Source: Arthrobacter burdickii (GTDB lineage: Bacteria > Actinomycetota > Actinomycetes > Actinomycetales > Micrococcaceae). Taken from it: 64,000 bases of DNA. Position 1 is the stretch's first letter. Every line of letters starts with the position of its first letter. Shown in pieces: positions 9,479 through 12,322 of this stretch. The notes under the pieces are model-generated. The model was not told the origin of the DNA. It saw only the letters and a list, made by a program, of their open reading frames with translations, and did no database searches. Location of the stretch: assembly GCF_030433645.1 (NCBI RefSeq), contig NZ_JAROCG010000001.1:930001-994000 (forward strand), in the 5' to 3' direction. The position numbers and the translations under genes are program-made.

Positions 9479-10447
9479 TCAGACCCAGCCCGCCTCGCGG
9501 GCCTTCAGGGCGGCCTGGAACCGGCTCTCCGCGCGGAGCGTCTCCAGCATCCAGGCGATGTGTCGGCGGCAGGTCCGCACGTTGATATCCAGGCGCCGGG
9601 CGATCGACTCGTCGGACAGGCCGTTGGCCAGGCCCTGGATGATCGAGCGCTGCAGGCTGCTCAGGGGCGACCCGACCTGGTCGGGAGCGAGGAAGGATTC
9701 GCTGAGCTCCCAGGCGATGTCGAACAGCTGCGTGAAGATGTTGATCAGGCTGTGGTCCCGAATGACCAGGGCTGCCTTGTCGTCCCGCGTCAGCTGGCGT
9801 GCCACCAGGGCCAGCTTGTCGTCGAAGATGAGCATGCGCAGGGGGATGAAGGGCAGGACGCCGAATTCGCCGCCCCCGGCCGCGATCGCCTCCACGGCCT
9901 TGCGGGTCGGCACGTGGTCCCGCGTGCTCGTGTCGTAGAGGGTGCGCCGTCGTACGCCGTTCTCCAGCAGTTCCAGGTCCTTGCGGACGCTCTCCTCGTG
10001 GACGTCCGCCGTCGAGCCCTGTCCCGGCTGGGCTATGTAGACCTTCTCCGTGACGTCCCGCCCGTAGTCGATGAGGACCCGGTGGATGAGGTGGGGGTCC
10101 TCGAGCGTCTCCACGGAGGTGCTGGCGAGCACGTTCTTCCGCGCTTCGAGGAACGTGGGCAGGAGGCTGGAGAGTTCACGCCGCTGGCCGCTGATGCGTG
10201 ACTTCAGTTCCTGCATGGCACGCTCGTCCGCGTCGACGAGGTCGGCGAGTGCGACGTCGGGGGACACCGCGACCAGTCCCGCCGCGCTGCCGGCCTGCGG
10301 GCTGAGCAGGCGGCGGTCGGAGAGGGCGGCGATGGCCTGGTCGATGCGGCGCAGGGTCAGGCCCAGCGCATCCGAGGCTTCGGAGCGGGTCCAGCCGGGG
10401 TGTCCGACGGCGTACCGGTAGACCTCGAGCGACGTCGCGTCCAGCAT
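9479..10447 (-). CDS. TrmB-like / LuxR-type transcriptional regulator
   Basis: A 322-residue regulator. The N-terminus (LEVYRYAVGHPGWTRSEASDALGLTLRRIDQAIAAL is the helix-turn-helix region, residues 7-42) resembles the TrmB winged helix. The middle is an effector-type domain without a recognised motif. The last 60 residues form a LuxR/GerE helix-turn-helix (LQRSIIQGLANGLSDESIA, then INVRTCRRHIAWML). I prefer the internal ATG at 10447 because AAGGA precedes it by 6 bp and the TrmB fold begins directly after; an ATG at 10489 is also open. It diverges from the peptide gene at 10815 and is its natural candidate regulator. Confidence 0.8.
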   Translation of the reverse strand: MLDATSLEVYRYAVGHPGWTRSEASDALGLTLRRIDQAIAALSDRRLLSPQAGSAAGLVAVSPDVALADLVDADERAMQELKSRISGQRRELSSLLPTFLEARKNVLASTSVETLEDPHLIHRVLIDYGRDVTEKVYIAQPGQGSTADVHEESVRKDLELLENGVRRRTLYDTSTRDHVPTRKAVEAIAAGGGEFGVLPFIPLRMLIFDDKLALVARQLTRDDKAALVIRDHSLINIFTQLFDIAWELSESFLAPDQVGSPLSSLQRSIIQGLANGLSDESIARRLDINVRTCRRHIAWMLETLRAESRFQAALKAREAGWV

Positions 10448-10501
10448 GGGCAGTCCTTGTCCGGGCCGCTGTGATGCCAGCGGCATCATTGCGCAGGAAA
10501 A

Positions 10502-10519
10502 AACATGACATGTCCAGTT
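10502..10519. promoter_or_regulatory. Dyad operator candidate upstream of the LuxR-type gene
   Basis: An 18-bp imperfect palindrome of the form AAC-NN-GACATGTC-NN-GTT lies 55 bp upstream of the preferred start of the LuxR-type gene. The half-site TGTCCA recurs at 10652-10657 and, inverted (TGGACA), at 10678-10683, on the side of the peptide gene. The spacing suggests that one regulator controls both divergent transcripts; this is inferred from the repeats only. Confidence 0.45.
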
Positions 10520-10814
10520 AATGACAGATCAGAGTGACAGGCAATTCCGGCAGGTCGCAAATCCTCATAATCCCCGCCGTTCGGCAGATTTCCGGGGCGG
10601 AAAGCGGTTCACCGCCGGCCCGGACAGCGGAGCCGAGTCCTCTTGACGCCATGTCCACAAACGGCCATCCGTACTGCTGGACACTACCTGCACGAGCCGG
10701 ACATTCTGGTGAAGCCGGTTCACAGGGAGGCACGAGAGGGGTCTCCCGCAGGATCCGGGCACTGCGGTGCAGGAGCAGCTCGACCGCCCGGAAAGCGGGC
10801 AGGAAAGGATCGCG

Positions 10815-10955
10815 ATGAAAAAGGTACTCGGCGCAACTGCGGGCCTGATGATCCTGGTCGGGGCTGTTGCGCCGGCGGGCCAGTCGATCAGCGCAACAAG
10901 CTGGGATTGGCCCAAGGGTGAGGTCGCAGCGAGTAGCTGGGACTGGCCCAAGTAA
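10815..10955 (+). CDS. Secreted peptide precursor with two SWDWPK repeats
   Basis: A 46-residue peptide preceded by a good ribosome site (GGAAAGGA). Residues 1-21 form a short Sec-type signal peptide: a KK pair, a hydrophobic core and an A-P-A cleavage motif. The predicted mature part (about 25 residues) consists of two near-identical 10-residue units, ISATSWDWPK (25-34) and VAASSWDWPK (37-46), separated by Gly-Glu, with the second unit ending exactly at the stop codon. The SWDWPK codons differ only at one silent position (GAT/GAC). This looks like a precursor of a repeated mature peptide, either a signal or a ribosomally made, modified peptide. Downstream lies a gene of lantibiotic/thiopeptide type. 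I know of no described family. Confidence 0.75.
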   Translation: MKKVLGATAGLMILVGAVAPAGQSISATSWDWPKGEVAASSWDWPK

Positions 10956-11038
10956 CAGGAGGCCCCGGACTAGAGCCCGGAGGCCCCACCCAGAGCCCGC
11001 CCCAGCGGGGGTAATCACAGACCCTGAAGGAGAGAGCC

Positions 11039-12040
11039 ATGAGCCAGTTGACCGCCGTTCGAACCGCCTCACGAATGGTCGTCAGCACTCAATGGTGGCA
11101 TCTCTCCCTCTCGACGGGTGGCTTCGATGTAGCGGACGGCATCATCGAAGAGCTGGTTACCCCGCTGGTGGCGCAGGCCCAGGCACTCGGCGCCAAGCGC
11201 TGGTATTTCACCCGGATGGACGACGCGCCCACCGGCCAGGTTCGGCTCAGCATCCACGCACACCCCCGTGTCCTCGAACGGCTACAGGCCTTCCAGCGGG
11301 CACTCCAGGCAAGCAGCGGAGGGAAATTCCCCCTGCTGGCGGTCCGCCAGCAGTTCACGGCCCCGGTGAGCAACACCTATTACTCCGGCGGCCAGGAGAT
11401 GGCTGATCCGCAGCTCGAGGCGGACCTCGTCAAGTACGGCGGCGTGGAGGGCCTGCACCTCGCCGAGGAAGTCTTCGAACTCAGTTCGGAACTCGCGCTG
11501 TGGGCCACCGCGCGCTTTCCCCGTATGCAGAGCCGCTCCGCCCTCGGTGCGCTTCTCCTGTTCGACGCCGCGGACAGCATGATGCGCGGACCGCACTCGG
11601 CCACGTGGCCCGACCGCCACCGGCTCTCCTGGGATGCCTACTGGGACGGCCACCTCCGGACCTGCACCGCCGACGTCGGCCCCCGCGCCTCGGGCGTCCG
11701 CGAGGCGATGACCCTGCGGGTCGCCACCAAGTCGACAGGCTTCCACGCCCTGATGGCCGCGACGGCCGCGGAGTCCACCGTGCACAACTGGCGGCGCCGG
11801 TGGGTCCGGTCCCTCGACACCTACCTGTACCGCGCGGACAAGGTCCACGTCAGCCGCAGTGCTCAGCATCTCACCGTGTACCAGGCGCACATGGCACTCA
11901 ACCGGCTCGGTTTCGTCGCCCGGGAGGAAGCTGCCCTGGGGCTCTACGCACGGACCTGGCAACCGCAGACCGAGCTCGCCAGACCACGTACCGCTCCATC
12001 GGCCCGTCGAAACCTCTCGAGCGAAAGGACTGCACCATGA
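11039..12040 (+). CDS. Stand-alone SpaB_C / thiopeptide-type bacteriocin biosynthesis protein
   Basis: A 333-residue protein made of the domain found at the C-terminus of lantibiotic dehydratases and in thiopeptide pyridine synthases. Diagnostic segments are RWYFTRMDD (54-62) followed by VRLSIHA (68-74), equal to the family's wFFiRy-D...HLRLR, and DLVKYGGVEG...LAEEVFELSS (129-150), equal to the E-RYGG...E-vF--S segment. In lanthipeptide synthesis this domain eliminates glutamate; in thiopeptides it forms the central ring. The large glutamylation domain that normally works with it is absent here, and no LanB, YcaO or radical-SAM gene lies nearby. It has a GGAGAG ribosome site and overlaps the next gene by 4 bp (ATGA). 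Confidence 0.85.
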   Translation: MSQLTAVRTASRMVVSTQWWHLSLSTGGFDVADGIIEELVTPLVAQAQALGAKRWYFTRMDDAPTGQVRLSIHAHPRVLERLQAFQRALQASSGGKFPLLAVRQQFTAPVSNTYYSGGQEMADPQLEADLVKYGGVEGLHLAEEVFELSSELALWATARFPRMQSRSALGALLLFDAADSMMRGPHSATWPDRHRLSWDAYWDGHLRTCTADVGPRASGVREAMTLRVATKSTGFHALMAATAAESTVHNWRRRWVRSLDTYLYRADKVHVSRSAQHLTVYQAHMALNRLGFVAREEAALGLYARTWQPQTELARPRTAPSARRNLSSERTAP

Positions 12041-12228
12041 ACTCCAGGAACACCATCGTGCTGGCACTTGACGATGCCGACCTCTCGGACGCCCTCGGGT
12101 GTTCCTCGGAGGCCGTCGAATCCATGCAGAACGACGGCGTCCTCGAGTCCCAGGGCCAGCTCTGGGAGATCGGCCCGGCCAGGGACTACCTGCGCGACGC
12201 CGCCTGGGCCGACAGCCTCTGGCACTGA
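12037..12228 (+). CDS. Small winged-helix-like protein of the peptide locus
   Basis: A 63-residue acidic protein translationally coupled to the SpaB_C gene (ATGA overlap). Residues 14-52 (DADLSDALGCSSEAVESMQ, then GQLWEIGPARDYL) fit a small winged helix of the excisionase/MerR type: helix, turn, recognition helix, short wing, closing helix. It lacks the basic residues expected of a DNA binder, so it may instead bind a peptide, in the way RiPP recognition elements use the same fold. The function is unknown; the call rests on pattern and position. Confidence 0.55.
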   Translation: MNSRNTIVLALDDADLSDALGCSSEAVESMQNDGVLESQGQLWEIGPARDYLRDAAWADSLWH

Positions 12229-12281
12229 CCGGACCGCAACAGCAGGCAGGAAGAAGCACAGGAGACGGACGGGCACCAGAA

Positions 12282-12322
12282 ACGACAGGACGCCGGCGCG
12301 GGATGCGCCGGCGTCCTGTCGT
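12282..12322. terminator. Strong hairpin terminator of the peptide locus
   Basis: A perfect 18-bp stem (starting ACGACAGGACGCC) with a 5-base loop (GGGAT) lies 53 bp after the 63-residue gene and 51 bp before the convergent FMN reductase end. It has no U tract but the stem is very stable, so it should terminate transcription from both sides. Confidence 0.75.

Follow-up and report, generated by a model that had tools for sequence, protein, structure and literature searches.

A regulator–peptide cassette with a stand-alone SpaB_C protein in Arthrobacter burdickii, a candidate peptide-signalling system

What does an enzyme domain of ribosomally synthesized and post-translationally modified peptide (RiPP) pathways do beside a tiny peptide gene and a divergent regulator? 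The question is raised by a 64,000-nucleotide stretch of the Arthrobacter burdickii genome, hereafter the window (positions 930001–994000 of contig NZ_JAROCG010000001.1; genome size 3.95 Mb), in whose numbering coordinates are given unless another locus is named. A gene from the open reading frame (ORF) list that encodes a TrmB/LuxR-type regulator (9479–10489, minus strand) diverges here from three plus-strand genes, which encode a 46-residue peptide precursor with two SWDWPK motifs (10815–10955), a stand-alone SpaB_C (Lant_dehydr_C) protein of 333 residues (11039–12040) and a 63-residue partner protein (12037–12228) whose gene overlaps that of SpaB_C by 4 bp (ATGA). This arrangement had been laid out in a preliminary description of the locus, and its coordinates, strands and overlap were reproduced. 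The reading that we favour, and consider probable though by no means secure, is that the peptide is an exported signal sensed by the divergent regulator.

A tryptophan motif that accompanies the regulator

Seventy cassettes were scored, 38 from the window genus, two from genus group g26, 16 from g32, two from g5, ten from g8 and one each from g9 and g14; the L076, L077 and f24 loci were excluded. Relatives of SpaB_C are present in 38/38 genomes of the window genus and, own genus counted, in 50/245 sampled genomes of the family Micrococcaceae (10/32 genera) and 15/394 sampled genomes of the class. The regulator diverges from the operon in 68 of the 70 cassettes, a W-x-W ORF (Y-x-W in g9) precedes SpaB_C in 69, and a small partner protein with an RDAAWA motif is found in 67. 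Extra SpaB_C copies (18 rows representing 17 distinct places, one a partial match, and a subset of the listed copies) had been set apart since no regulator is near, and none of the 17 has a W-x-W ORF or a partner. The peptide therefore goes with the regulator and not with SpaB_C as such. Listing the small frames beside SpaB_C homologues, a check proposed in the preliminary description, thus revealed that the W-x-W peptide and the LuxR-type gene co-occur; that description would have taken the cassette for a relic had both been lacking elsewhere, and regulator-adjoining SpaB_C genes nearly always have the peptide. Genomes of g32 (L079–L089, L108, L109) hold up to seven SpaB_C match rows each, pieces counted.

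The window peptide reads MKKVLGATAGLMILVGAVAPAGQSISA-TSWDWPK-GEVAAS-SWDWPK, with its SWDWPK copies at residues 29–34 (10899–10916, plus strand) and 41–46 (10935–10952, plus strand). Among 14 members with 46 codons (91 pairs), nonsynonymous divergence (pN) is 0.000 over both copies against a synonymous divergence (pS) of 0.365, and pN/pS is 0.72 in the spacer and 0.40 in the signal region. With this constraint and a W-x-W or Y-x-W ORF in all but one cassette, the arrangement is more than chance; by the same codon evidence, the peptide is real and SWDWPK is its constrained part. Neither small protein has a Pfam family at E up to 1. Motif copies range from one to six per peptide across the cassettes, and the variants include NWEWPK two or three times, VWDWPQQ four or six times, IWDW or AWDW at the extreme C-terminus, IWGWPQKT, GIYDWPTVA and RRIWAWPESW. 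The twin repeats of the preliminary description hold for the window, but tandem repetition is not universal in relatives.

The short ORFs of g32 include MKSWDWF and MEKATGSTVSIKSWEWF, and tiny Trp-rich frames such as the former could instead point to a Trp-sensing translational attenuator, in which a leader peptide would govern SpaB_C and conserved hairpins would act as the switch. A short conserved hairpin, CCCGC-CCCA-GCGGG, does follow the peptide gene, ahead of the ribosome-binding site of SpaB_C (10996–11009, plus strand), its sequence being largely preserved in the window genus, g26 and g32. However, the Ser, Asp, Pro and Lys residues vary no more than Trp in the 14 members, many members have a Sec-type N-terminus and up to six tandem copies, and similar peptides occur beside regulators without SpaB_C. 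In addition, the intercistronic hairpins display a two-sided change in 1/14 pairs, with little covariation, so no structural claim is made for them, and a known RNA family was rejected because the hairpin region has no Rfam match. An attenuator is, in our estimate, very improbable.

Judged from charge and hydrophobicity, a Sec-type N-terminus is present in the window peptide and in four of the seven genus groups, but no export signal is recognisable in the peptides of g32, g9 and g14 or in the genus member L017, so that the Sec signal ascribed to the peptide earlier stands for the window and for part of its relatives. In the alignment, the window-genus repeats are preceded by small-x-Ala sites (SISA-T before the first copy and EVAA-S before the second in the window, and similar ones elsewhere), which suggests that they are freed by a signal-peptidase-like cut. 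Alternatively, the peptide could act without leaving the cell, inhibiting the regulator or serving it as a co-ligand, with the Sec-like N-terminus serving as a membrane anchor in some genera. The groups without a recognisable signal would fit this, and the regulators match just DNA-binding and TrmB-type domains plus one family of unknown function; the small-x-Ala sites speak against it, as do the Sec-type peptides of the four groups and of the viral loci described below. We regard intracellular action as improbable, and from its N-terminus the small peptide is probably exported.

The regulator and its operator-like sites

The regulator has an N-terminal region resembling a winged helix-turn-helix (HTH), followed by a sensor region. 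GerE, the C-terminal LuxR HTH, was found in 18/18 aligned regulator members (3.7e-8 in the window), and Pfam TrmB in 5/18, with a best value of 4.2e-4 and 0.041 in the window. The LuxR half of the TrmB/LuxR label is thus well founded, while its TrmB half is only weak in Pfam. The regulator profile matches TrmBL2 chains over positions 6–260 (E 1.9e-5), a similarity to the archaeal TrmB/TrmBL2 regulators, from which the protein differs in its additional LuxR HTH, its peptide neighbour and its low TrmB score. The sensor region is presumably PLD-like. Pfam gave the 18 members no match to a tetratricopeptide repeat (TPR) or to an autoinducer-binding domain of the acyl-homoserine-lactone type (E up to 0.01).

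Alignment of the intergenic region from 14 members brings out two blocks, TGTCCAGTTAATGACA and TGTCCACAAACGGCCA, and a pattern search places two operator-like sites that are kept in this alignment, TGTC-N8-GACA at 10511–10526 and TGTC-N8-GCCA at 10652–10667. The general pattern TGKC-N8-GMCA, derived from the window genus and g32, occurs between the regulator and SpaB_C in 60 of 67 cassettes compared with 3.5 expected under a first-order Markov model; of the 70 cassettes, L053 and L054 (no regulator match in the stretch examined) and L015 (no C-terminal W-x-W ORF) do not enter this count. The pattern is also found in 13/14 cassettes of groups outside the derivation set (g5, g8, g9 and g14). In 8/14 members of g32, a change in one half-site is matched by a change in the other (TGGC...GCCA), which is what a dyad that binds a dimer should show. 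Its two occurrences in the whole genome are both at the cassette. The regulator is probably both receptor and autoregulator of the cassette.

Across the 38 genus genomes there are 33 pattern matches at the cassette and 14 elsewhere, and the reversed control pattern gives 16; a wider regulon was rejected because the off-cassette matches are at this control level. Two near-identical off-cassette matches recur, in G003, G005, G006, G019 and G022 and in G016, G017, G023 and G028. The luxR-like genes of strain UMCV2, which carries this cassette (L033), are the subject of PMC9659744 and may include this regulator.

SpaB_C and its small partner

The SpaB_C label given to the 333-residue protein is borne out by a match to PF14028 at 4.6e-18, and the SpaB_C profile matches MibB at 2.1e-5. 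According to PMC4979651 (for H961 also PMC4341554), the NisB mutants R786A, R826A and H961A keep glutamylation and lose elimination. Via the NisB and MibB alignments, the corresponding residues in the window protein are Ser71, Lys132 and His284. Members of the window genus have S, H or N at the R786 position in 38/38 cases, whereas several other groups have Arg there, and the His at the H961 position is retained in 38/38. All three residues (R, R, H) occur jointly in 3 of 62 cassette rows, a count that covers 62 of the 70 cassettes; the R826 site is less telling because it is Lys in 6/6 LanB-type rows too.

Lant_dehydr_N was found in none of the sequences of the own genome and in 1/38 genus genomes, and YcaO was not found in the own genome, to which that search was limited. 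This is not the picture of related SpaB_C genes that always sit beside LanB or YcaO partners, which the preliminary description had put forward as another sign of a relic; a lanthipeptide or thiopeptide pathway with lost partners was rejected, since neither LanB-N nor YcaO was found in the genome and the residues for elimination have not been retained.

A small RiPP natural product, for instance an antimicrobial, of which SpaB_C would modify the W-x-W core while the regulator merely controls the cluster, has to be weighed at this point. SpaB_C is after all a RiPP-enzyme domain, and at the three LanB-linked loci tested with Pfam (L076, L077 and L091, all distant relatives), SpaB_C is immediately preceded by a gene that scores as Lant_dehydr_N over the Pfam cut-off; L077 also lies near a regulator of the present family. 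Against such a product stand the failure to find LanB-N and YcaO in the genome, the lack of an immunity or export gene among the four cassette genes, the presence of SpaB_C in every genus genome, unlike a patchy bacteriocin, and the existence of peptide–regulator pairs without SpaB_C in the stretch examined. We consider a RiPP product unlikely.

At L077 (3849–8964), a Lant_dehydr_N gene, a SpaB_C gene and a same-family regulator gene stand in a row. In a tree of 50 regulators, in which the outside ones were picked mostly for having a peptide and motif labels were assigned by eye, the SpaB_C-linked regulators fall in one clade (100/99), at whose base, itself unresolved, the LanB-linked L077 is placed; L075, L172 and L175 are on long branches. 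From the Lant_dehydr_N-linked distant relatives and the position of L077 we infer that SpaB_C descends from a split-LanB RiPP cluster and then changed function, and L077 may represent an intermediate in the evolution of the signalling cassette from a RiPP cluster. SpaB_C is probably a repurposed peptide-modifying or peptide-binding protein. With the split LanB glutamate-elimination proteins it shares homology (PF14028 and MibB, as above); it differs from them in that no glutamylating partner was found in the genome, the R786 position is non-Arg throughout the genus, and the peptides here are without Cys and have no Ser/Thr common to the motif of all groups. A mobile-element origin was rejected: no plasmid relative of SpaB_C was found, and none of the 43 pattern matches obtained with regulator profile A2 in viral contigs was confirmed; phages were not searched with SpaB_C.

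The 63-residue partner has a conserved C-terminus, YLRDAAWADSLWH. It had been described as winged-helix-like, but HTH_17 is matched in just 2/16 members (best 0.15), and neither a winged helix nor a copy of the HTH of the regulator finds support; no convincing relative was found in the PDB. Orthologues in g8 (L073, L074, L115–L119) have a different N-terminal half but share DYxRDAAWADxxW at the C-terminus, an indication that this end of the protein does the work.

Related pairs in other families and in phages

The pheromone arm of the preliminary description, which had proposed a peptide circuit or else a small RiPP pathway, is strengthened by the joint occurrence of peptide, regulator and operator-like sites in different genera, and also by related regulators outside the Micrococcaceae, which often have an analogous Sec-like peptide as neighbour while the stretches examined hold no SpaB_C. 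The regulator profile was matched at E <= 1e-20 in 136/296 sampled class genomes, at most seven candidates being scored per genome. At 69 outside loci (29 and 40 more), we scanned for ORFs that follow a ribosome-binding site, encode a Sec-like N-terminus and have a Trp in the C half, and such ORFs were divergent at 21 loci, upstream and co-directional at one, downstream forward at three and downstream convergent at eight; the same scan returned 118 in 3000 random stretches. For the subset with D-x-x-W or W-x-W, the figures are 12/69 loci (divergent) versus 16/3000. Among the 21 divergent cases, L156, L176, L187 and L208 were judged to be ORFs arising by chance, and L163 and L188 represent the same locus, so that 16 remain; together with seven of the eight downstream convergent ORFs, two of the three downstream forward ones and L165, all judged by eye, a convincing peptide lies beside 26 of 68 distinct outside regulators. 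SpaB_C was found in 0/73 outside loci, four viral ones included, in stretches that are mostly about 4 kb long.

Tandem motifs among these peptides are of the DSGWN type five times, DSGWT five times, DTSWG twice, DTGW three times and DLPWT twice; ends of other peptides include SGDNIWM, TTDSLWD, PNDMIWG and LDPIWG. Sec-like D-x-x-W peptides of several families stand beside regulators at L180, L199, L200, L213, L215, L216, L218, L196, L182, L163 and others. None of ten outside peptides tested reached a Pfam or NCBIfam cut-off, and their best matches (0.0021 to 0.01) are to signal regions, one of them to a Phr N-terminal family.

A tblastn search of phage records retrieved Streptomyces phage Chymera (KU958700.1; recorded host S. 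venezuelae; 28% over residues 145–318, 3e-9), with the locus of interest at L121 1825–3100. Gene 29 of this phage encodes a regulator of the TrmB/LuxR type near an integrase gene; its divergent neighbour, gene 30, codes for a Sec-like peptide in which ADPGWG follows the signal and NDPGWG forms the end. Three viral contigs, L222 (taken together with L121), L223 and L224, carry the regulator at 100, 88 and 68%, each with a divergent peptide that has DPGWG twice and in which signal and linker differ. Arbitrium-type phage communication uses a phage-borne propeptide and a regulator beside lysogeny genes. Chymera has a regulator, a DPGWG-repeat Sec-like peptide and an integrase nearby, and an arbitrium-like circuit in actinophages, which might act on lysogeny, is possible. 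The peptide–regulator pair would be the older core of the system, because it is found without a neighbouring SpaB_C in other families and in the Streptomyces phage.

An exported signal could work as follows. The precursor is predicted to be exported by Sec and would then be cut so that each short Trp motif copy is freed; the mature peptide may be taken up and bind the TrmB/PLD-like region of the divergent regulator, and binding would alter the hold of the regulator on the two TGTC-N8-GNCA sites and thereby how strongly the operon and the regulator gene itself are transcribed. In the Micrococcaceae, SpaB_C, probably from a split-LanB dehydratase, most likely binds or modifies the W-D/E-W peptide, with the 63-residue protein as a presumed accessory.

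Several observations weigh against this circuit, in addition to the peptides without a recognisable export signal. There is no transporter, protease or importer among the four cassette genes, and no operator target beyond the cassette is indicated, since off-cassette matches stay at the control level. No W peptide was recognised beside 42 of the 68 distinct outside regulators; the operator pattern is weaker outside the family (11/69, one locus twice, versus 2.6 expected) and absent from the viral loci (0/3). The cassette of genus member L015, with one SWDWPK, an altered end and a partner that was not found, looks degraded, and SpaB_C is split into separate pieces in L027, L105 and L113. That the motif tracks the regulator clade could moreover be plain co-inheritance.

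Known systems offer partial parallels to the signal circuit. The RRNPP members Rap/Phr, Rgg/SHP, PlcR/PapR and the arbitrium pair AimR/AimP have TPR-type receptors, to which a secreted and re-imported peptide binds. The cassette would work in a similar way and, like them, has a regulator adjacent to a small propeptide gene, also on phages; unlike them, its putative receptor is TrmB-like with a LuxR HTH and has no TPR match, which is why the cassette is not filed as RRNPP, and it belongs to Actinomycetota instead of Firmicutes, with a tandem Trp motif and a SpaB_C partner. In ComQXPA, the short peptide ComX carries a key Trp that is prenylated by a dedicated enzyme and is sensed by a membrane kinase; a short peptide with a key Trp and a candidate dedicated modifying enzyme recur here, the enzyme being SpaB_C and the putative sensor a regulator with DNA-binding domains. 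The yeast alpha-factor precursor likewise consists of a signal followed by tandem, spaced copies of a short Trp-containing peptide, an analogy for which no homology is claimed. Peptide signalling via intracellular regulators is best known from Firmicutes (PMC10075063). No description of a system like the present one is among the literature matches listed, for which preprints and most subscription journals were outside scope, and priority can therefore not be claimed.

More tentatively, and with rather less than even confidence, we propose an actinobacterium-wide superfamily of exported, often tandem Trp peptides (D-x-x-W and W-D/E-W-P) and TrmB/LuxR-type sensors, with several paralogues per large genome, arbitrium-like pairs in actinophages and a Micrococcaceae branch in which an orphan C-domain of lantibiotic dehydratases has been enlisted for tailoring of the W-D-W signal. 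If true, this would be a widespread actinobacterial counterpart of the Firmicutes circuits, with predicted signals of some 5–8 residues that make cheap synthetic ligands, with which one could probe whether such signals control development, metabolite clusters or the lysogeny of phages. It would also suggest a signal class for the many orphan LuxR-type regulators in the 136 genomes matched, and a new activity for an orphan RiPP domain.

Beyond the partner gene lies an 18-bp perfect inverted repeat, read from the sequence (12282–12322, arms 12282–12299 and 12305–12322), which had been described as a hairpin that ends the unit. The repeat is present as described; it is, however, not a canonical intrinsic terminator because no T run follows it, and it is a possible transcript end. 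From their translations, the cassette is flanked by an aminotransferase-like gene on one side and a reductase-like gene on the other. Among the named relatives found, Arthrobacter agilis strain 4041 is the closest, with a SpaB_C protein that is 94% identical.

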